DNA of 55,385 bases from a virus. The stretch is from positions 1 to 55,385 of IMG/VR virus record IMGVR_UViG_3300046804_004030; one strand, given 5' to 3'. The notes below the pieces were generated by a model. It made no database searches. It was given only the letters and a program-made list of their open reading frames with translations, and was not told where the DNA came from. Positions 37,267 to 48,437 of the stretch are shown here, one piece after another (positions within the stretch are counted from its first letter, which is position 1; each line of letters begins with the position of its first letter). The translations under genes and the position numbers were made by a program.

Positions 37267-37692
37267 TTAAACGAGATCTGATAGGTCAGGGGGCTGATAG
37301 TTCGGCCCCTTCAACACCTTGCCGTCTTCTCGATACACAGGCTTGCCATTTTCGTCAAGCTTGCTCATGTTTGACTTGAAAACCCGGCACATTGCAGCTT
37401 CTAGGTCAACACCAAGAAACGCAGCCATTTGCTCGCAGACAAAGGCAAGGTCAGATAACTCCTTAATAACCTGCTCCTTAAACGCATAAAGAGCTTCTTC
37501 GTCGGTGCTGCTGTTGCTGGCAGAGACCCAGGCGTCCAAGGCTTCCTTAAACTCATTTCCCTCTTCTTCAATCAGACTGAGCTGCATTGTGAGATCAGGC
37601 AGCATTGCGTCAGGCACTTTTGCGGTGCCCGGTGCAATCACTACCTGGTTGAAGACACGGCGAAACTCAACAGCTTGCTCGGTGCGGTTCAT
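37267..37692 (-). CDS. MazG-like nucleotide pyrophosphohydrolase
   Basis: The 141-residue product has the all-alpha NTP pyrophosphatase metal-binding pattern: EEEGNEFKE (residues 42-50) and KELSDLAFVCEQM (77-89), and the C-terminal signature SNMSKLDENGKPVYREDGKV (107 onward) then LKGPNYQPPDL, typical of the phage and phosphoribosyl-ATP pyrophosphohydrolase-like branch. It probably hydrolyses dNTPs or alarmones such as (p)ppGpp. It is the first of the DNA metabolism block when read rightwards. Confidence 0.9.
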   Translation of the reverse strand: MNRTEQAVEFRRVFNQVVIAPGTAKVPDAMLPDLTMQLSLIEEEGNEFKEALDAWVSASNSSTDEEALYAFKEQVIKELSDLAFVCEQMAAFLGVDLEAAMCRVFKSNMSKLDENGKPVYREDGKVLKGPNYQPPDLSDLV

Positions 37693-37889
37693 TGCGGGGC
37701 TTGAGCTGGGTTCTTGATGCTGGAGGTGATAGTACGCCAGCTGTTACCGAAACTGTCGCCAAAACGTGCGCGAGTTCGCCACCAAAGACGAACAAAGTTG
37801 CGACGTTCGCTGCGTGGCATCTTGTTCCAGTTAGCCGCAAGATAAGCAGCTTCGGCGCGTTGCAGATCTGTACGCGTTGATTGGGTCAT
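37689..37889 (-). CDS. Hypothetical basic protein, 66 aa
   Basis: I chose ATG 37889 (MTQSTRTDLQRAEAAYLAAN). Product: helical, then NFVRLWWRTRARFGDSFGNS and TITSSIKNPAQAPQ. It overlaps the MazG-like gene by four bases. Function unknown. Confidence 0.65.
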   Translation of the reverse strand: MTQSTRTDLQRAEAAYLAANWNKMPRSERRNFVRLWWRTRARFGDSFGNSWRTITSSIKNPAQAPQ

Positions 37890-37947
37890 CAGTAGATAAA
37901 AAGATGGCCCCGGTTTCCCGAGGCCGTTTGCCATTTAGGCGATCAGA

Positions 37948-38562
37948 TCACAGATCCAGATCGGCTTCTTCTTCGTCACCTTCAGCATCGAAGTCAACTT
38001 CGGCCTGCTCGGCGACTTCCTTGACGCCAGCGGTGATGATGATCTGGCCGGGGGCAGCCTCGATCTTCACGTAGCTGTCAACGTCTTCACCAAACGGGAA
38101 GCCAGCGATGGAGGTATGGCGACCGCCAACAACAATGTTGCCGGTTTTGCCGATCTTCACAACCGGGCTGCGGTTGGTGCGGCGATGCGAACGCACAGGA
38201 GCCGCAAGCTTCACGCCAGACAGAGCTTCAAGCGAAGCAGTCAGGAAAGCGTTGGAATCGGCGGCGGTAACACGAACTTCGACAGCGCCGGTAGCGTTAT
38301 CGGTGATCTCGGTGTAGAAACCGCAGGCCTTGGCCACCGCATCAAGCGGCTGGCCTTCCATGGCGGTCATGGTTGCCTTGATCTGATCCAGGGGCAGCGG
38401 AGTGCCTTTGGTGCGAGTCGTGGCGGCAGTCTTCTCGGCGGGAGCTTCAGACATTTGTTCGGGACTGGGACTATCAGTGATGGGGATTTCAGCCGTTTCG
38501 ACTTCGGCTGCTTTTCGGCTGGGCAACGTCGGTTCCTTTGGACGACCCAGAAATCCTACCAT
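37948..38562 (-). CDS. cyAbrB-like transcriptional regulator
   Basis: From about residue 55 the 204-residue product follows the cyanobacterial AbrB-like (cyAbrB) family: PLDQIKATM, AKACGFYTEI (77-86), then a long region ending LEALSGVKLA, then SPVVKIGKTGNIVVGGRHTS (132-151) and a final beta part with KIEAAPGQIIITA. The N-terminal 50 residues are disordered and the C-terminus is acidic. In cyanobacteria these proteins control nitrogen and carbon metabolism genes. A phage copy might reprogramme host transcription. The start ATG 38562 or the one at 38454 could be used. Confidence 0.75.
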   Translation of the reverse strand: MVGFLGRPKEPTLPSRKAAEVETAEIPITDSPSPEQMSEAPAEKTAATTRTKGTPLPLDQIKATMTAMEGQPLDAVAKACGFYTEITDNATGAVEVRVTAADSNAFLTASLEALSGVKLAAPVRSHRRTNRSPVVKIGKTGNIVVGGRHTSIAGFPFGEDVDSYVKIEAAPGQIIITAGVKEVAEQAEVDFDAEGDEEEADLDL

Positions 38563-38592
38563 GACAGATCACGGTTCTGCAAGGTGCCGGCC

Positions 38593-38988
38593 TCACTTTT
38601 TTTGAGGAGGCGCCCACGGCAGCAGGTACAGGAACACCTGCTGGTTGTCTGTTGGCGCCGGCTGCCACCAGATCAGGGCGCCTGGAACGCGTGCGCACCG
38701 ATCATCCACCAAAACCCCAGCCTTAACAGCTGCATCAAGCACAGCCCCTGACAGGTTGTCAACATCGCTCCGGCCATGGCCATGCAACTCGATCCCCACC
38801 AGAGCGTGTTCCAAGGGCGGACGGCCTTGCCATTGCTCGCGGAGTGAGGCCTGGGAGGCCGCCAGCCAGGCCCTGTACTTACCAGATGTGTATGACCGGC
38901 CCATGCCCTGACGAGGCCGCTCCTTAGGCTGCAACGGGCCTGCCAGGCGCAGGGTGAGCCACTCATGCCCACTCGGGCTCGGCTGCAT
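38593..38988 (-). CDS. rusA: RusA-family Holliday junction resolvase
   Basis: I chose ATG 38988; an ATG at 39036 would overlap the upstream gene by 74 bases. The 131-residue product has the RusA core: RSDVDNLSGAVLDAAVKAG (73-91), with catalytic Asp75 and Asp77, and VLVDDRCARVPGALIWW with the paired Asp95-Asp96. It cuts four-way DNA junctions at phage recombination or packaging intermediates. It lies next to the recombination genes. Confidence 0.9.
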   Translation of the reverse strand: MQPSPSGHEWLTLRLAGPLQPKERPRQGMGRSYTSGKYRAWLAASQASLREQWQGRPPLEHALVGIELHGHGRSDVDNLSGAVLDAAVKAGVLVDDRCARVPGALIWWQPAPTDNQQVFLYLLPWAPPQKK

Positions 38989-39721
38989 AAACGTCAGCAG
39001 CAGCGGATGAATCCCTTGCCCCGGCTGCACGCGCATCAGCGCATTGCTCCAACAGTTTCAATGCAAGGATCCTAGACTTACCTGGGCCAAAGCGCTCGAA
39101 TAGCAGTCTACCAACTTCCTCAACTTGAAGAGTCGTTGGATTCCTGAATACACTGATTGGCTTAAGTGCCTGCTTTTTCTCACCGTATCCATGTGCGTAA
39201 TAACATTCCTGTACGTCCTTGTACTTTCTTCCTGGTCCTATGTCAGCCAGTGAATCTGGCTGCATCTGATACAAAAACTTTACCGTTCTGTAGTCAATAA
39301 TCTTGTTAAATTTCTTCTTTTTTCTGTTTCTTGCAATCTCCCTGATTAACCTTCTGTACTCAAAGAATGACTCGGGGAAGCAAAAAGTGTGATCTTCTTT
39401 TCTTAACCAATCAACGAACTTGTAAGCATATTTGTTTTTGGACTTTTCCTTAAGCGCTGACTTGGTAACTGCGACAATAAACTCACCAAGATCCCTGATG
39501 CCAAGTCCGTAATAAACGCTATGAACAAAATCTTTGATACCTTTCAGCTTAACTTCTTTTCCACGCATAGTTGTATAACCATGGTGAACATTGGCTTCAA
39601 CGATTTTTAGCATCGTCATGAAAAAAGGCTCCGAATCTTGCCCCGCCATGACGGTTGCAAGATGGAGCCTCGCATCCTCTACAAGCATTGCCTCGTAGAA
39701 GGGATCGCCTTTGTTAAGCAT
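38963..39721 (-). CDS. Hypothetical protein, 252 aa
   Basis: The product is mixed: YTTMRGKEVKLKGIKDFVHS, GEFIVAVTKSALKEKSKNKY, then a basic middle (RLIREIARNRKKKKFNKIID) and LYQMQPDSLADIGPGRKYKD near the end. It ends with an Ala/Asp-rich tail overlapping RusA. It may bind DNA and partner RusA. No family is recognised. Confidence 0.65.
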   Translation of the reverse strand: MLNKGDPFYEAMLVEDARLHLATVMAGQDSEPFFMTMLKIVEANVHHGYTTMRGKEVKLKGIKDFVHSVYYGLGIRDLGEFIVAVTKSALKEKSKNKYAYKFVDWLRKEDHTFCFPESFFEYRRLIREIARNRKKKKFNKIIDYRTVKFLYQMQPDSLADIGPGRKYKDVQECYYAHGYGEKKQALKPISVFRNPTTLQVEEVGRLLFERFGPGKSRILALKLLEQCADARAAGARDSSAAADVYAAEPEWA

Positions 39722-39756: not shown

Positions 39757-40149
39757 TCAGAACGGAACTTCGTCTTCTTCGGGATCTGGCTGACTGCGCT
39801 TAGCAGACATTGGAGAACCACCTGGCTTATCACCGCCAAGCAACGTGAAGTTCATGCAACGAAGCGTAGGGGTGACATTTTTTTTGCCATCCTTCTCCCA
39901 CTCGTCAATCGCAAGCTCGCCGCTAACGATAATTTGCGTGCCTTTCTTCACGTAGTCACTGACGACCTGGGCTTGCTTGCCCCAAACTTCAACACGCACC
40001 CACATGGGAGCGGGCTTGGGATCACCCTTTTTGCCGTACTTATCAACGGCAATATTGAACTTGGCAACAGAGTTGCCGCCATTGAGAGCTTTCAGCTCAG
40101 CATCGCTACCAGCGCGACCGCTGAACGTACAGGAGTTAAATGAGGCCAT
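39757..40149 (-). CDS. ssb: Single-stranded DNA-binding protein
   Basis: I chose ATG 40149 (MASFNSCTFSGRAGSDAELK). The 130-residue product is one OB fold: the first strand CTFSGRAG, then VAKFNIAVDKYGKK, PMWVRVEVWGKQAQVV and KKGTQIIVSGELAIDEW. It ends PEEDEVPF, the acidic tail with a terminal Phe that recruits partner proteins in SSB. It protects single-stranded DNA in replication and recombination. It is adjacent to a second OB-fold-like protein. Confidence 0.9.
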   Translation of the reverse strand: MASFNSCTFSGRAGSDAELKALNGGNSVAKFNIAVDKYGKKGDPKPAPMWVRVEVWGKQAQVVSDYVKKGTQIIVSGELAIDEWEKDGKKNVTPTLRCMNFTLLGGDKPGGSPMSAKRSQPDPEEDEVPF

Positions 40150-40166
40150 TGGCTGGGGGCAGTAGG

Positions 40167-40568
40167 TCAAAGTGACAGTTCATCATCGCCCGAAGGCGAG
40201 CCGTTGTCAATACCTTCGTCAAGGTTGTAGCCCTTGGGAAGCTCGGGCTTGAAGGCTGGCGAGAAGCCAAGCTTTGGCGGAAGCGTGAAAAATGCGTCCC
40301 GCAAGTAGATGTGACAGCACTTCACGCCATCTTTTCTGACCCTTGGCATGATGCGACTTATAGAGCCAGTCATTGTCATGTAGTCATTAGCGCGAACGTA
40401 GTCAAGGAGAAGAGTGATTTTTCTTCCGTAAAAGCGGCCTTGCGCATAATGCACCTCTCGGCCGCCAAGATTTATTTTCAGAATAAGATCCGAGTAACGA
40501 CCATACTCGCCATTCTTTTCCTCAGGATTTTCAACGACGTATCCATCAAAGTTAGCGGAAATTGGCAC
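40167..40568 (-). CDS. Second SSB-like OB-fold protein, 133 aa
   Basis: The product has OB-like order: FDGYVVENPE, RYSDLILKINLGGREVHYAQ, GRKITLLLDYVRANDYMTMT, SISRIMPRVRKDGVKCCHIY and a helix-free end. The C-terminal tail is acidic (SGDDELSL), like SSB tails but without the final Phe. It differs from the first SSB and lies next to it, so it may be a paralogue with a specialised role. Four bases of overlap are not visible here, but only 17 bases separate the two. Confidence 0.7.
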   Translation of the reverse strand: MPISANFDGYVVENPEEKNGEYGRYSDLILKINLGGREVHYAQGRFYGRKITLLLDYVRANDYMTMTGSISRIMPRVRKDGVKCCHIYLRDAFFTLPPKLGFSPAFKPELPKGYNLDEGIDNGSPSGDDELSL

Positions 40569-40570
40569 TG

Positions 40571-41341
40571 TCAGACAGCCTCAATTTTTTTACGAGGAAA
40601 GGGTGAGTTTTCTAGCTCCTGATAAATCTTAAAGCGCTCGATAAACTCATTAGCATATTCCCTAATCTTTTCGATTGGCTCAACGAAAAGGGTAGGCTCG
40701 CACCAGTCATAGCAAGCGCAAATAACCATCTGCTCAATCGGCGGGTACTCACCAGTTTCTTTTGCGTAAATGTTATGCGCAAGTGTGTACGCACTCATCT
40801 GTACGAAACCTTCATGAAACCTGCTGCGAGGCTTACGCTTCTTCTGAACGCCCTCCTCAAGGTGTGATCTTGAGCTTTTCCAGTCCCATACCGTGTATTT
40901 CTGATTCCACCACAGCCTGATGTCAGGCTTGCCGGCAAAACCGTAGGGACAGTAAAGCGGCTCCTCAATAATCATATTTCCATTTGCCAAGCCAGGCCAC
41001 GCATCGCAAGCGCCAGCATTGGAATCACGCATATCCCGTAGCAATGGCTCCAGGTAGTGCATGTATGCAGCAATGTTGTGATGCGTCAGTTCCTCAACTG
41101 TTGGCGCATCTTCTACATGCTTTTGGCGGCCTCCAGTAAGGAAGCCCTCTGCCATGTAATGAACAATGGTGCCACGACGCTGGGCCTTTTCAAGAATTTC
41201 CTGATAATTTGGCTCGCGCTCCTGCCAAATACCAAGACCCTTGGCTTTGGCTGGATGGAAGATAGGCATTGTCTTGCCAAGGATTGTTGAAATCCTTGCG
41301 TATTCCAGCCCATCCTTTTCGTAAAACTCATGATTAGACAT
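40571..41341 (-). CDS. RecB/Cas4-type PD-(D/E)XK nuclease
   Basis: The 256-residue product has the nuclease motif order: RGTIVHYMAEG with His61, EEPLYCPYGFAGKPDIRLWW with Glu127 and Asp140, VWDWKSSRSH with the Asp153-Trp-Lys155 of motif III, and QMSAYTLA with Gln181 of motif IV. Such proteins resect DNA ends to give the single strands that annealing proteins use. The start overlaps the Rad52 gene's end by eight bases, so the two are a recombination pair. No iron-sulphur Cys cluster is visible. Confidence 0.85.
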   Translation of the reverse strand: MSNHEFYEKDGLEYARISTILGKTMPIFHPAKAKGLGIWQEREPNYQEILEKAQRRGTIVHYMAEGFLTGGRQKHVEDAPTVEELTHHNIAAYMHYLEPLLRDMRDSNAGACDAWPGLANGNMIIEEPLYCPYGFAGKPDIRLWWNQKYTVWDWKSSRSHLEEGVQKKRKPRSRFHEGFVQMSAYTLAHNIYAKETGEYPPIEQMVICACYDWCEPTLFVEPIEKIREYANEFIERFKIYQELENSPFPRKKIEAV

Positions 41342-42107
41342 TCAGTGCCTCCTGAGCAGCAGACTGTAGATCGGCAATGGAAGGGGCCTGCACCTCTTCC
41401 GTTACGCGCACAACCTGATCGCCTTTGCTGTTCTGGCCGGCATTCAGCTTGACGGCATATTCAGCTGTCAGATTCTGAAGCAGCTTGCCACGGATACTTT
41501 CCTTGACCTCCTCCCATTTGCCAACACCAAGAATTACCTTCAGAGCTGCAATGCCAGTCCTGTTGATACCAACGGACTCCATTTTTTCGGTAAGCCTTGA
41601 AATAAACTCAGCATTGATGCGATCCATGTCAGATACCTGCATCTGACTCGGGGGCGCATCTTCAACGGCTCGCTGATCCTTGTCGTACAGCGCAAGGCCA
41701 AACGGGTTGCCAAAGGTCATGGCAGCCCTCTTCATTGCATCAGTTGCCGCTTCCTTGATTGCGGATTCGTGAGCAAGGCCGAGATCAACGTCAATGCCGT
41801 GACCAGCGCCAACACCTTCACGGCAAACGCCGCCAACATTGAGCTTGATACGAGCAATGTAAGAAACGCCCCAACCGTCTTTTTGCTGACGACCAATCTT
41901 CCTTTCGGCTTCATTGACGCATTTGATTTCGATAATGTCCTGATTCCATCCATCAAAACCAAAGATGCGGTTCATCTCACGGATGACCCACCATCCTTCA
42001 ACATAAGAGAGCTTCCTGCCACTCTGCTCACGTTGCTTGACGACCTGAGCTGATAGCGAGCCCTTCAGTTCATCGTTTTGATGATCGGAGAAAATTCCAG
42101 GTTTCAT
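41334..42107 (-). CDS. Rad52/Rad22-family single-strand annealing protein
   Basis: The 257-residue product shows the Rad52 core: RKLSYVEGWWVIREMNRIFG (31-50), FDGWNQDIIEIKCV, SYIARIKLNVGGVCREGVGA and GHGIDVDLGLAHESAIKEAA (103-122), and TDAMKRAAMTFGNPFGLALY (122-141). It promotes annealing and strand exchange of phage DNA. The C-terminal part is a linker and helix. It is the first gene after the promoter near 42141. Confidence 0.95.
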   Translation of the reverse strand: MKPGIFSDHQNDELKGSLSAQVVKQREQSGRKLSYVEGWWVIREMNRIFGFDGWNQDIIEIKCVNEAERKIGRQQKDGWGVSYIARIKLNVGGVCREGVGAGHGIDVDLGLAHESAIKEAATDAMKRAAMTFGNPFGLALYDKDQRAVEDAPPSQMQVSDMDRINAEFISRLTEKMESVGINRTGIAALKVILGVGKWEEVKESIRGKLLQNLTAEYAVKLNAGQNSKGDQVVRVTEEVQAPSIADLQSAAQEALNV

Positions 42108-42131
42108 CGGCGGGGGTGGTTGGGGCTGTGT

Positions 42132-42482
42132 TTGACACGGATTCTATCATGCCAGAAGCCATGCAAGCAACCCTTGAGCACCACCGCATCCACGCAACTC
42201 AACCGGATCTTGCGGACCACGGCCAATCTGCTGTTTGAAAAGGGTGAAGATGCTGCAAACGTCATCAACTTGCTACAGGGTTTTGTTGCTCCATCTATGG
42301 TAAGAAAGTGGCACCAACGCTACCAAGAGCTGCACGGACTGGCCGGCGCTGATACCAGTAAGCGCGACATTCGCAGATTACCGATGCCACCCATCGCGTT
42401 TCAGACTGTTGAGCTGAAGACAATGGAGCGGCTACTTGAACAACCACCGGCCGAGGATGACGCGGTAGAGCCTGACTGGTGA
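42132..42482 (+). CDS. Hypothetical protein of uncertain start, about 116 aa
   Basis: The frame is open from 42078 but that would overlap the Rad52 gene; TTG 42132 and TTG 42174 are the candidate starts. The clear part is NRILRTTANLLFEKGEDAAN, then FVAPSMVRKWHQRYQELHGL, which looks like a helix-turn-helix with linker, then an acidic end (LEQPPAEDDAVEPDW). It is on the + strand within the minus block, so it may be separately expressed. Function unknown. Confidence 0.5.
   Translation: MTRILSCQKPCKQPLSTTASTQLNRILRTTANLLFEKGEDAANVINLLQGFVAPSMVRKWHQRYQELHGLAGADTSKRDIRRLPMPPIAFQTVELKTMERLLEQPPAEDDAVEPDW
42141..42149 (-). promoter_or_regulatory. Extended -10 promoter of the recombination operon
   Basis: TGA-TAGAAT on the minus strand (42149-42141) is an extended -10 element. 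A -35-like TTGCTT lies 18 bases upstream, just outside the usual range. Transcription would begin near 42134, 27 bases before ATG 42107. Confidence 0.5.
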
Positions 42483-42513
42483 TCGCAGCTAGGGTTCCTT
42501 GGCCAGGGGTGAG

Positions 42514-42717
42514 ATGGCGCAAGCCGATCGACGCCCGTATTCACAAGGAACTGCTGTGGAGAAAACTGTCAAAATTCCCGAGCAAGTGTGCGCAGTTCTT
42601 AATGACATCGCAAAAATCAGGCGCACCATTCTTGAGAATGCTCCACAGTGTCTCCCGCTCTTGGCTCCGATCATCGTTGACGCAGAGGATCACCTGCATT
42701 CACTGTACCCTGGCTGA
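42514..42717 (+). CDS. Small protein, 67 aa
   Basis: ATG 42514 follows AGGGGTGAG. Product: MAQADRRPYSQGTAVEKTVK, then a helical IPEQVCAVLNDIAKIRRTIL and PIIVDAEDHLHSLYPG. It converges on the gene at 42700, with 18 bases of overlap. Function unknown. Confidence 0.6.
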   Translation: MAQADRRPYSQGTAVEKTVKIPEQVCAVLNDIAKIRRTILENAPQCLPLLAPIIVDAEDHLHSLYPG

Positions 42718-42930
42718 CTTACGCCTGGCCTGAGTCCTGGCCTTATTCTTGGTACTGTTTTTTTGTTTCAGGATCTCCTGCATCTGGGCCTTGATCCTGT
42801 CGATCTCGGCCTGATTCTTCTTGTCGCGCACAGCCTGCAGCGCCTCTTGATAGCCTGGGGCTTCAAGGTCTGGTCGCTCCGCAAAGATCGCAGACCAATC
42901 CGGTGCAGAAGACTTTCTAAGTTCAGCCAT
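42700..42930 (-). CDS. Small basic protein, 76 aa
   Basis: ATG 42930 follows CAGGAGGATT, an ideal ribosome binding site. Product: MAELRKSSAPDWSAIFAERP, then PGYQEALQAVRDKKNQAEID and a strongly basic tail (KKNSTKNKARTQARRKSARV-like). It overlaps the end of dnaB by eight bases. The basic tail suggests DNA binding; a helicase-loader role is only a guess. Confidence 0.7.
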   Translation of the reverse strand: MAELRKSSAPDWSAIFAERPDLEAPGYQEALQAVRDKKNQAEIDRIKAQMQEILKQKNSTKNKARTQARRKSARVQ

Positions 42931-44401
42931 CAATCCTCCTGAGTGTTTCATCAAAAACAATAGAGCTTTGTAGATCTATGGCACAACGAAGTGTGCCGCA
43001 AACGCCATGACGGTTCTTTGCGACACTAATTGCAAGCTCATAGGGATCCTTTGATTCATCGTAATAAGCCGGTCTTAGCATGAACATAACAATATCGGCG
43101 TCTTCTTCAATGCGGCCGGAAGCACGCAAGTCAGAGAGTGTCGGCATCTTATCTGTTCTACTTTCAACACCGCGATTGACCTGACTTAACAGGAAAATGT
43201 CAATGCCAGCTCTAACGGCAAGTTGCTTAAGCGCTCTTGTGACATGACCAATGTTTGACGCTTCTGTATTATTGGCGTCACCAGAGCATCCTTCAATTAG
43301 CTGAAGATAGTCAATAAATACTGCAGATAGCTTGGGCCTTGTTTTAGATAACAAAACGACTTTTGAGGAAATGCCGCCAATGCTCTCGGATGAAGCATCA
43401 TAAATATGGAATCTATTAACAAAAGGAGAATTACGATAGCTCTCAAGCCTCTCGCGTTGATCAGTTGTGTAGCTGCGTTGCCTCAAGTTGTGCGAACGAA
43501 TTGGATTTGTCAGATTCTTGGACATGCTTAAGTTCAAATAGTCATAGCAAGAAATTGCTTTGTACTGAACTTGTCTTTTAGACATTTCAAGACTAAAGAA
43601 AGCAACATCTCCGTGTGAATCAGCCAGCTGCGTGGCAAGAGAGATGGCAATCGTGCTCTTGCCCATCGCTGGCCTTGCAGCAACGACAATCAATCGACCC
43701 GAGTAAGGAGAATTTCTTGAAGCAATGCCACCCTGTATCGCCTCGTCAAGAACCTGCAAGCCAGTGCTGATGGCAATTCCTTGCGGCAGTGGGGCAAGAA
43801 GTTCATCAACAGATGACTGCCAGTCATCATCCTTGCGATCTATCAGCGATATATTATTCCAGGTATCGTGCTGAGCCTCAATAAGTTTTGGAATCTTATC
43901 GAGAATACTGTCTACATCTGGAGGAGCGTTAAAAATATCAAGCATCTCCTCCGAGTTTTGAATCATCTGACGCCTTATCAGCTTGAGGCGCCAAACAGGA
44001 AGGATTGATTCAAAGTTTTGAACAGAGTAAAAGATAGATGGCGAGTTGAGTACGCCTTCTATAAGCTCGCACTCTTTTTCATGCCCACGAATTTTGAGCA
44101 CACGCTCTGCCATAACGGCAATGCTGCCAGGAAGCAGAAACTGAGATTTCGTCGTTCCAGCAAAAAACTTCTTAATTACAAAGAATATTGCCTTCCTGTG
44201 AACTTCGGTAAACCAACTGTCATCAATCGTTGAGAAGACTTTCATGAGTCCCTCTACGTCGCCCTTATTGGGCTCTCCCTCAAGCAAAAAGCAAGACGAA
44301 GCAAGAAAGCAGGTCTCAAATTCGTCAGTATCCCATGTCTGAATACCGCTGAGAAGATCTTCAAGTGTCTTCTCTAGTGACTTTTGACCTTTCTGGCTCA
44401 T
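42923..44401 (-). CDS. dnaB: DnaB-type replicative helicase
   Basis: The 492-residue product has the N-terminal DnaB domain (about 20-150) and the RecA-like helicase core: ARPAMGKST Walker A (242-250), SLEMS (270-274), VFIDYLQL Walker B (361-368), SQVNRG (406-411) and RASGRIEEDADIVMFM (426-441). It unwinds DNA ahead of the phage fork as a hexamer. It overlaps the gene upstream by four bases. Confidence 0.95.
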   Translation of the reverse strand: MSQKGQKSLEKTLEDLLSGIQTWDTDEFETCFLASSCFLLEGEPNKGDVEGLMKVFSTIDDSWFTEVHRKAIFFVIKKFFAGTTKSQFLLPGSIAVMAERVLKIRGHEKECELIEGVLNSPSIFYSVQNFESILPVWRLKLIRRQMIQNSEEMLDIFNAPPDVDSILDKIPKLIEAQHDTWNNISLIDRKDDDWQSSVDELLAPLPQGIAISTGLQVLDEAIQGGIASRNSPYSGRLIVVAARPAMGKSTIAISLATQLADSHGDVAFFSLEMSKRQVQYKAISCYDYLNLSMSKNLTNPIRSHNLRQRSYTTDQRERLESYRNSPFVNRFHIYDASSESIGGISSKVVLLSKTRPKLSAVFIDYLQLIEGCSGDANNTEASNIGHVTRALKQLAVRAGIDIFLLSQVNRGVESRTDKMPTLSDLRASGRIEEDADIVMFMLRPAYYDESKDPYELAISVAKNRHGVCGTLRCAIDLQSSIVFDETLRRIDG

Positions 44402-46081: not shown

Positions 46082-46699
46082 ATGCTTAAAAACGACCGCT
46101 GGATCAAGGAACAAGCCGAAAAGGGGATGATCACTCCCTTTGTGAAAACACTCGTGCGCGAGGTTCTGCCATACGACGAAAATCGCGGACTTTATCGAGA
46201 CAACACGGTTGGCGTACTTTCTTACGGCCCGAGTTCTTTTGGGTATGACTGTCGCCTGAGTCCCGATGATTTCAAGATTTTTATGCACGTACCTGGCACT
46301 GTGATGAATCCCAAGAGATTCAATCCGGCCAACCTGCAACAAGCTCAGCTACATAGCGATGACGACGGAGATTTTTTTATTCTCCCGGCTCATACCTATG
46401 GCCTGGGTGTTGCAATTGAAAAACTTAGAGTACCATCAAACATAACAGTTATCTGTCTTGGTAAGTCCACGATGGCCAGGCTAGGTATAATTATCAACAC
46501 AACTCCAGCTGAAGCAGGCTGGGAAGGACATCTAACGCTTGAGTTCAGCAACAGCAGTGGGGCAGACTGCCGCGTTTACGCAAATGAGGGCATCTGCCAA
46601 CTGCTATTTCTTGAAGGGGAGCCATGCGAAACCTCGTATAGCGATAGAAATGGGAAGTATCAACACCAACCCTGCAATGTAGTTACAGCGAGGATCTGA
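46082..46699 (+). CDS. dcd: dCTP deaminase
   Basis: The 205-residue product has the Dcd core: SYGPSSFGYDCRLS (47-60), GKSTMARLG (127-135) and TTPAEAGWEGHLTLEFSNSS (140-159), with the catalytic Glu region of the dUTPase-like trimer. It converts dCTP to dUTP, which supplies dTMP synthesis with ThyX encoded next. N-terminal MLKNDRWI is typical. Only 20 bases separate it from the upstream gene. Confidence 0.95.
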   Translation: MLKNDRWIKEQAEKGMITPFVKTLVREVLPYDENRGLYRDNTVGVLSYGPSSFGYDCRLSPDDFKIFMHVPGTVMNPKRFNPANLQQAQLHSDDDGDFFILPAHTYGLGVAIEKLRVPSNITVICLGKSTMARLGIIINTTPAEAGWEGHLTLEFSNSSGADCRVYANEGICQLLFLEGEPCETSYSDRNGKYQHQPCNVVTARI

Positions 46700-46779
46700 G
46701 CAGGTTAAGGCACCTTGCAGGTTGCGCACGCCGGGGTTGGGCTAGTAGGGTGATCCCCGAACACCGCAGCCCCTTTTTC

Positions 46780-47499
46780 ATGGATCCACGGTTCCGGGTG
46801 GAGACGATCGCGGCAACGCCCGAGCCGAATCGGCTGGTCTGGCGGGCGCTACACACCGACTACTCAGAAGATTTCATCGCTGACCAAGAAGCGCCAGATG
46901 AAGGAAGGGCCGGTGAAATCTTTATCAAGAGACTTCTAAGTGCAGATCGCGGGCACTTTGGATGCGTAGAGCATCCGCAAATCTCATTTGCTGTTGGATG
47001 GTTTCCGCATTCCGTGATGCAACAGGCTCGTACACATCGCGTATCAGTTAGTTTCGATGTAATGTCGGGGCGCTATACGGGACAAAGAATTCTTGACGTA
47101 GTAAGCGGTAAACGGGAACTTGAGGAAGTCTTCTATCTTAGGCCACTAGGCAACTACTCGGACAGACAGGGCAAGAAATATGAGTACACCGAAGATTGGC
47201 GTGCGTTCGATCTGAAGGAGTGCATGAACGCTGCACGCATCTACGCCGATAAGATTGCAGAAGGCTTCGCCGAAGAACATGCAAGGGGTATGGTTCCCTT
47301 TGATTTCAGGCAACACTTTGTCGTCAGCTTCAATGCTCGCTCGCTGTGCCACTTTCTTGATTTGCGTAGCAAGGCTGATGCACAGATCGAGATCCGCTGG
47401 CTTTGTGAGTTGCTCATGCCGAAATTCAAGGAATGGATGCCTGAGCTTGCCGAATGGTACGCCAGCCACAGATATGGAAAAGCGAGGCTGGCACCATGA
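46780..47499 (+). CDS. thyX: Flavin-dependent thymidylate synthase
   Basis: I prefer ATG 46780 (MDPRFRVETI), the usual start for cyanobacterial ThyX, over a GTG at 46750. The 239-residue product has the ThyX signature RTHRVSVSFDVMSGRY (84-99) and GHFGCVEHPQISF (58-70). The enzyme makes dTMP from dUMP with FAD. The stop overlaps the sigma factor start (ATGA). ThyX of this type, not ThyA, is the cyanobacterial form. Confidence 0.95.
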   Translation: MDPRFRVETIAATPEPNRLVWRALHTDYSEDFIADQEAPDEGRAGEIFIKRLLSADRGHFGCVEHPQISFAVGWFPHSVMQQARTHRVSVSFDVMSGRYTGQRILDVVSGKRELEEVFYLRPLGNYSDRQGKKYEYTEDWRAFDLKECMNAARIYADKIAEGFAEEHARGMVPFDFRQHFVVSFNARSLCHFLDLRSKADAQIEIRWLCELLMPKFKEWMPELAEWYASHRYGKARLAP

Positions 47500-48437
47500 C
47501 ATGCGAAGACTACTTAAGGGATATAGGCCGCGTGCCTTTGCTGACAAGCGAAGAAGAGATTGTCCTTGGCAATAGTGTCCAGACCATGATTCGCCTGCTA
47601 GAGGGCAAGGGTGTCACCCATCAGCTTTCGGCAAGCAATCTTGACGAAGCACTGGAGCAACTCAACGGCCAGGAGAGGCGAATCGTCAGGAATGGGCTGA
47701 GAGCAAGAAACCGCATGGTTTCAGCTAACATGCGTCTTGTAGTTGCCATAGCAAAGAAGTACGTCAATAAACAGGTTCACATGACAATGCAAGATCTGAT
47801 CCAAGAAGGTGCGATCGGTCTTGCAAGAGCTGCTGAAAAGTTTGACCCAGCGCGAGGATACAAGTTTTCCACCTACGCCTATCTGTGGATCAAGCAGGGG
47901 ATGACGAGGGGATGCGAAGCCCAGGAGGGAATGATCAAGCTCCCGGCGCATCTCCAGCGACTAATCAGGAAGGCTGCTGAGGTGCGGATTCGCCTGGCTG
48001 CAAAGCTTGGCAGAGAGCCAAGCTTCAAAGAACTGTCGGATGAGATGGGTGAAGCTGATCACGACAAGCTGAGAAGCATCATCTCAATGCACATGCTGAT
48101 GTCACCGGCAATTATTTCGATTGACATCAAGGCAGAAGGAAATGATAGGTCATTCCTGTCGCTGTCTGATATTTTGAATACAGATGACGAAAGTGAAATT
48201 AGAGAGTCAGAAGAAGACGCATCAAAGCTAAACTTTGTAATGCTTGCAATTCAGGCTCTTGATCCAGTTGACAGAGAGCTAATTACGAGAAAGTACGGGA
48301 TTGGCTGCGAACCAGTTTCTATCAAAGAACTTGCAAGAATGACAGAGCTTGCGCCGCAGGTGATACGAGAGCGACAGCAGCTGGCAGCAGCAAAGATTCG
48401 ATATGTGGTTACGAGCTTTGTAGCGCCAGCTATTTGA
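47496..48437 (+). CDS. Sigma-70 family RNA polymerase sigma factor
   Basis: I chose ATG 47496, which overlaps the thyX stop. The 313-residue product has region 1.2 (YLRDIGRVPLLTSEEEIVLG, 6-25), region 2 (NMRLVVAIAKKYV to ARGYKFSTYAYLWIKQGMTR, 78-138), region 3 (LPAHLQRLIRKAAEVR, 149-164) and region 4 (LDPVDRELITRKYG and ELARMTELAPQVIRERQQL, 252 onward). This is the group-2 layout of cyanobacteria, not a short extracytoplasmic factor. It would direct host polymerase to phage promoters. A terminator follows. Confidence 0.9.
   Translation: MTCEDYLRDIGRVPLLTSEEEIVLGNSVQTMIRLLEGKGVTHQLSASNLDEALEQLNGQERRIVRNGLRARNRMVSANMRLVVAIAKKYVNKQVHMTMQDLIQEGAIGLARAAEKFDPARGYKFSTYAYLWIKQGMTRGCEAQEGMIKLPAHLQRLIRKAAEVRIRLAAKLGREPSFKELSDEMGEADHDKLRSIISMHMLMSPAIISIDIKAEGNDRSFLSLSDILNTDDESEIRESEEDASKLNFVMLAIQALDPVDRELITRKYGIGCEPVSIKELARMTELAPQVIRERQQLAAAKIRYVVTSFVAPAI

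Follow-up and report, generated by a model that had tools for sequence, protein, structure and literature searches.

A phage gene encoding a remote relative of the cyanobacterial regulator cyAbrB, with a corrected start

In the virus record IMGVR_UViG_3300046804_004030 (the window, meaning the whole stretch of 55,385 bases that we analysed, confirmed as a virus record and carrying phage replication and tail genes) we found a real, conserved gene for a variant of a cyanobacterial nucleoid regulator, and we give a corrected gene model for it. A first-pass annotation had described a reading frame of 204 residues with ACGFYT and GNIVVGGRHT segments as cyAbrB-like and phage-borne; the frame and both segments are present as claimed, and profile comparisons establish the product as a remote, very diverged homologue of cyAbrB. 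The start of the gene is most likely the ATG at 38454, giving a protein of 168 residues. A recent proposal sees CyAbrB2 as a nucleoid-associated protein of cyanobacteria, one with glutathione as its switch and AT-rich DNA as its binding target (PMC11368403 and PMC13421787). The features of the gene itself are as follows:

37948..38562, minus strand: open reading frame as first listed, 204 residues, with the ACGFYT and GNIVVGGRHT segments
37948..38454, minus strand: phage cyAbrB-like gene with the corrected start (ATG 38454..38452), 168 residues
38323..38325, minus strand: single cysteine codon (C44 of the 168-residue protein), equivalent to redox Cys34 of CyAbrB2

The upstream ATG of the window (38562) is not a conserved start, since an in-frame TGA stands near that position in five relatives (L001, L003, L005, L006, and L007). 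We also compared codon positions in two independent pairs of sequences, with the upstream part beginning at a TTG/GTG codon that lies 69-72 nt ahead of ATG 38454. Upstream of this ATG the changes were spread evenly over the codon positions, 9 of 25 falling in third position, as against 108 of 150 downstream (Fisher p = 0.0006), and synonymous changes made up 4 of 18 changed codons upstream versus 90 of 122 downstream (p = 4e-5). Because a codon pattern is present downstream and missing upstream, we placed the start at ATG 38454; the 168-residue gene is evidently under purifying selection. The 50-residue disordered N-terminus reported earlier therefore has to be given up, as it is mostly leader that was read as protein from a mis-called start. 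The N-terminal extension left after the correction is about 17 residues, and some host copies have one equally long or longer.

Profile searches in both directions support the cyAbrB-like assignment. A cyAbrB profile run over 1058 peptides of the window matched only this ORF (E = 2e-6), with the next peptide at 5.6 and the best reversed-peptide control at 1.8, which places the homology far beyond chance. A profile built from the phage sequences only, run over 117 Cyanobacteriota genomes, gave 42 matches at E up to 1 (best E 7.6e-6), of which 34, including all of the top 25, were cyAbrB genes. Five of the other eight (in genomes G091, G087, G055, G046, and G026, which have no cyAbrB match) were weak matches to the phage N-domain (E 0.004-0.35) in frames of 561-576 residues. 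When the phage and cyAbrB profiles were aligned with each other, the match covered 99 columns at 26% identity and had a probability of 93.7 and an E-value of 1.8e-7; when 89 host sequences were used, the probability was 97.5 and the score 71.5, the best of 100 column-shuffled decoys reaching 24.0. The homologous stretch of ~100 residues spans both ACGFYT and GNIVVGGRHT, and under the reversed and column-shuffled controls homology at the profile level runs along both halves of the protein. The real cyAbrBs used in these comparisons were drawn from cyanobacterial plasmids and genomes.

As a single sequence the phage protein had no significant match in Pfam, PHROGs, NCBIfam, or PDB. It gave no match at the curated cut-off of PF14250, a model that covers the C-terminal part of cyAbrB only and that matched two bona fide plasmid cyAbrBs with E-values of 3.6e-34 and 1.3e-32; for this reason we call the protein a diverged variant and not a filed member of the family. 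Among the generic SpoVT/AbrB and MazE Pfam models no family was listed for it, which a diverged copy could escape. PHROG 1084 was considered as a relative, and its match was too weak (E 0.15 and 0.079) for us to accept the relation.

The 168-residue protein is laid out as a short N-tail, an N-terminal helix-helix-hairpin-helix domain with ACGFYT, a basic linker (RRTNRS), the GNIVVGGRHT hairpin region, and a long acidic C-terminal tail. The first-pass annotation had left out this tail, which host cyAbrB has too. The same order is found in cyAbrB1 and cyAbrB2 (Sll0359/Sll0822 type; PF14250), which have a PL motif and helix, ACG(F/Y)Y, F..A...A.G..L, a basic linker, GN(I/L)(V/L)(V/I)G....T, and an acidic tail, with a single cysteine at the equivalent place. 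Identity of the phage core to 28 host sequences is 22-29%. The phage protein differs from cyAbrB in a longer loop before the third helix, in its hairpin loop (FPFGEDVDSY versus LKPGDEF), and in an acidic N-domain (charge -4/-5 versus -1 to +6 in the 12 host copies examined). The net charge of the C-domain is +5, as against +4 to +9 in 12 host copies, and that of the tail, which ends in LDL in all phage copies, is -9 to -11 as against -1 to -8.

All five complete distinct phage sequences have one cysteine, in ACGFYT at the host position. A single cysteine is likewise found in 59 of 61 non-redundant host cyAbrB copies, a set largely extracted by the pattern CG[YFLW], so that the motif count among hosts is circular. 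In L060 and other host copies position 34 is part of ACGYY, and it is the commonest cysteine position in the 61 copies. In Synechocystis CyAbrB2, Cys34 is glutathionylated with loss of DNA binding (PMC13421787), and the CyAbrB2 cysteine is described as the single conserved one in PMC4264147.

AlphaFold2 given the five phage sequences only produced a confident N-domain and a C-part without an AbrB match. Once 28 host sequences were included in the alignment, the C-part was modelled as beta-beta-alpha-beta-beta, like the DNA-binding domains of AbrB, SpoVT, and MazE, although the phage domain is C-terminal, lies behind a separate N-domain, and has no sequence match to those proteins. The ten best solved matches of this host-aided C-part (Z 5.1 to 3.3) were AbrB/SpoVT/MazE-type or were viral or plasmid proteins of that fold, the best being SpoVT (Z 5.1, rmsd 1.7 over 46). 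Among these matches, two archaeal plasmid/virus proteins and the "histone-like" entries are ones we take to be of AbrB-type fold. We do not take the AbrB fold as settled, since host sequences helped to build the model that has it. Foldseek gave no E-value under 0.001 with either model. Weaker structural matches (7s03, 4yif, and 2f2e; Z 2 to 3) aligned to the N-domain, which, as modelled, may be winged-helix-like.

Relatives of the gene were found in seven IMG/VR contigs, the same seven being returned by a profile scan and by a motif scan of viral contigs with the pattern AKACG[FY]YT. Besides the protein of the window there are four distinct complete proteins, one identical protein being common to three contigs, and one contig stops inside the gene. 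No tblastn match to the phage protein was found in 50,697 phage records. Host-type cyAbrB was found neither in phage records, using an approximate Sll0822-like probe, nor in viral contigs, using that probe and also real cyAbrBs. The cyanosiphoviruses S-CBS1, S-CBS3, and KBS-S-2A and phage S-H1, each of which has at least one of sigma factor, RusA, SSB, exonuclease, and ThyX, had no cyAbrB-like peptide among 2748 six-frame peptides. A search of genome contigs found no close relative.

The surroundings of the gene in the window comprise the following features:

38593..39036, minus strand: RusA-like resolvase, conserved upstream neighbour
37267..37692, minus strand: MazG-like nucleotide pyrophosphohydrolase, conserved downstream neighbour
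39757..44401, minus strand: replication/recombination module (SSB, 133-residue protein, exonuclease, Rad52-like annealing protein, 86-residue protein, DnaB)
47454..48437, plus strand: sigma-70 family factor encoded by the phage, with recognisable regions 1.2 and 2
38455..38592, minus strand: leader of 138 nt from the RusA stop to the corrected start, from the alignment of relatives
37906..37925, minus strand: intrinsic terminator that lies 22 nt past the stop codon, with an 8-bp stem, a GAAA loop, and then a T run

The gene order is DnaB, Rad52-like, exonuclease, SSB, RusA, then the cyAbrB-like gene, then MazG-like, and the cyAbrB-like gene lies in the replication/recombination module in all seven related contigs. 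RusA is 5' of the gene in 7/7 and MazG 3' of it in 5/7, the available stretches of the other two ending before MazG; the sigma factor is likewise found in five of the seven, and the contigs that lack it are two 9-kb fragments. Between the Rad52-like and DnaB genes a 134-residue frame (42078..42482, plus) runs on the other strand. Between its neighbours the gene is bracketed by a conserved leader, the lower part of which is what had been taken for the protein N-terminus, and a conserved terminator, found 20-30 nt 3' of the stop in 6/6 sequences examined, with a consistent stem change (G-T to A-T) in L001. In the leader a TTGC element is followed 17-18 nt later by TATGAT in six of six relatives examined and by TAGGAT in the window; consensus promoter scans found no sigma-70 site, and the putative promoter is therefore marked as tentative. 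On the other side, an 81-residue ORF (37689..37934, minus), with a match in 4/7 related contigs, has its listed start before the terminator hairpin, so its real start is probably further in.

The host of the phage is probably picocyanobacterial, which we infer from the likeness of its dCTP deaminase DNA to a group of genomes that we read as picocyanobacterial by their size and psbA, and from the nearest known ThyX and sigma factor being those of Synechococcus phages. The dCTP deaminase and ThyX genes are adjacent (46082..47499, plus). The deaminase DNA is ~70-74% identical to genomes of this group and 72-74% in the ten best matches, all ten of which are in genomes that the family search had drawn as well. 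Some genomes of the group, G299 among them, also match the ThyX part, near the deaminase match and on the other strand. Across 201 genomes of the group the phage profile gave five matches with E no higher than 0.1 and no convincing relative. The strongest, at E 0.0045, falls in a 140-residue frame of L202 that looks like a shadow frame and was rejected, as was L204.

The first-pass annotation had expected a phylogeny with host copies to show a link to cyanobacteria. The outcome that would have spoken against it, no link to cyanobacteria, did not occur, but the tree could place the phage branch with no host lineage. We reduced 163 extracted host sequences to 61 at under 82% identity, omitting L185 and L186, in which the hairpin is missing, from the tree and profiles, and L182 from the cyAbrB2 set. 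The tree had 64 rows, and two branches, of 5.27 and 2.41 substitutions per site, connect the phage clade to it. As this puts ~7.7 substitutions per site between the phage branch and each of the 59 host sequences, the gene is by this measure no recent acquisition from a sampled host, and the phage variant is probably old. Profile-profile scores were 32.3 for picocyanobacterial cyAbrB (n = 30, a set of low diversity), 64.3 for cyAbrB1, and 67.0 for cyAbrB2; that the picocyanobacterial score is below the other two speaks against recent uptake from the likely host.

Taken as a whole, we somewhat favour a cyAbrB-derived, nucleoid-associated-protein-like DNA-binding regulator used in infection, and such a regulator is the best reading of the mechanism from the sequence data. 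The 168-residue protein would be a small dimeric nucleoid-associated regulator, with a winged-helix-like N-domain, a basic linker, an AbrB-type hairpin C-domain, and an acidic tail. Its gene would form the final expressed unit of the replication/recombination block, running from its own leader to its own terminator. It would bind double-stranded DNA of the phage, the host chromosome, or both, and alter the access of RNA polymerase, including polymerase with the phage's own sigma factor, during phage DNA replication. The regulator is possibly redox-responsive: by analogy with host CyAbrB2, the single cysteine could make binding follow the glutathione redox state. The protein could also retune host carbon and nitrogen metabolism, as was first proposed. 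In favour of this reading we count the homology, the host-like layout, the cysteine, the SpoVT/AbrB/MazE-like model of the C-domain, the gene order, the terminator, and the selection on the gene; against it we count the acidic N-domain, the altered hairpin loop, the AbrB fold missing from the phage-only model, the failure of PF14250 to match, and the absence of a sigma-70 consensus promoter.

A strictly phage-directed regulator, acting as an early-to-late switch or in replication timing and leaving host metabolism unaffected, is possible though less probable; its fixed place in the replication module of 7/7 contigs, the conserved terminator, and the phage-encoded sigma factor all fit, and nothing speaks directly against it, but the kept redox cysteine would lack an explanation. 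We think it unlikely that the protein is a dominant-negative antagonist, which would pair with host cyAbrB, strip it from DNA, and lift the silencing of AT-rich or foreign DNA. Host cyAbrB1 and cyAbrB2 do interact and CyAbrB2 is described as resembling H-NS in its binding of AT-rich DNA (PMC13421787 and PMC11368403), the charge of the phage N-domain is opposite to that of most host copies examined, and PF14250 proteins occur in 198/201 genomes of the picocyanobacterial group (up to 14 matches); however, the phage protein retains the basic linker and the charge of the C-domain, as it would if it still bound DNA, and the great distance from host copies makes mixed dimers less likely. The RusA, SSB, Rad52-like, and exonuclease neighbours and the LDL end of the tail in every copy would suit an accessory of recombination or replication, a protein that had given up transcriptional regulation by its fold and used its acidic tail to recruit partners, much as single-stranded DNA-binding proteins do. 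But host cyAbrB proteins, which are known regulators, commonly have acidic tails too, and we consider such a role improbable. Chance similarity without homology to cyAbrB would account for the single sequence having no family database match and the phage-only model no fold match, but it is strongly opposed by two independent profile directions and the decoys, and we give it very little credence.

Through the cyAbrB link, a conserved gene of this phage group that had no name is given one. Among open-licence PMC papers we found none describing a phage-borne cyAbrB; AbrB-type DNA-binding domains are reported from a few jumbo phages in PMC7824862. The diverged phage version is a natural variant for testing what the CyAbrB2 system does in infection. 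A bolder idea, which we offer as speculation that probably does not hold, is that picocyanobacterial phages have long kept their own redox-responsive nucleoid protein of cyAbrB descent and use it to rewire or replace the host nucleoid according to the photosynthetic redox state.

That cyAbrB is confined to cyanobacteria, as the first-pass annotation had it, agrees with our sampling as far as it goes: cyAbrB was present in 49/117 sampled Cyanobacteriota genomes, among them all 48 psbA-positive ones, PF14250 scored over its cut-off in one of 14 control genomes (Synechococcus elongatus), and all 80 kept genome-contig matches were titled as cyanobacteria. L185 and L186 both belong to G117, a 1.75-Mb, psbA-positive genome, and are frames of 1110 and 589 residues with the cyAbrB N-terminal domain and no AbrB hairpin. 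Matches to cyAbrB also occurred in 10 plasmid records of Acaryochloris and Calothrix, and on the Acaryochloris plasmid pREC4 the cyAbrB gene (L015) adjoins a sigma-70 family gene.
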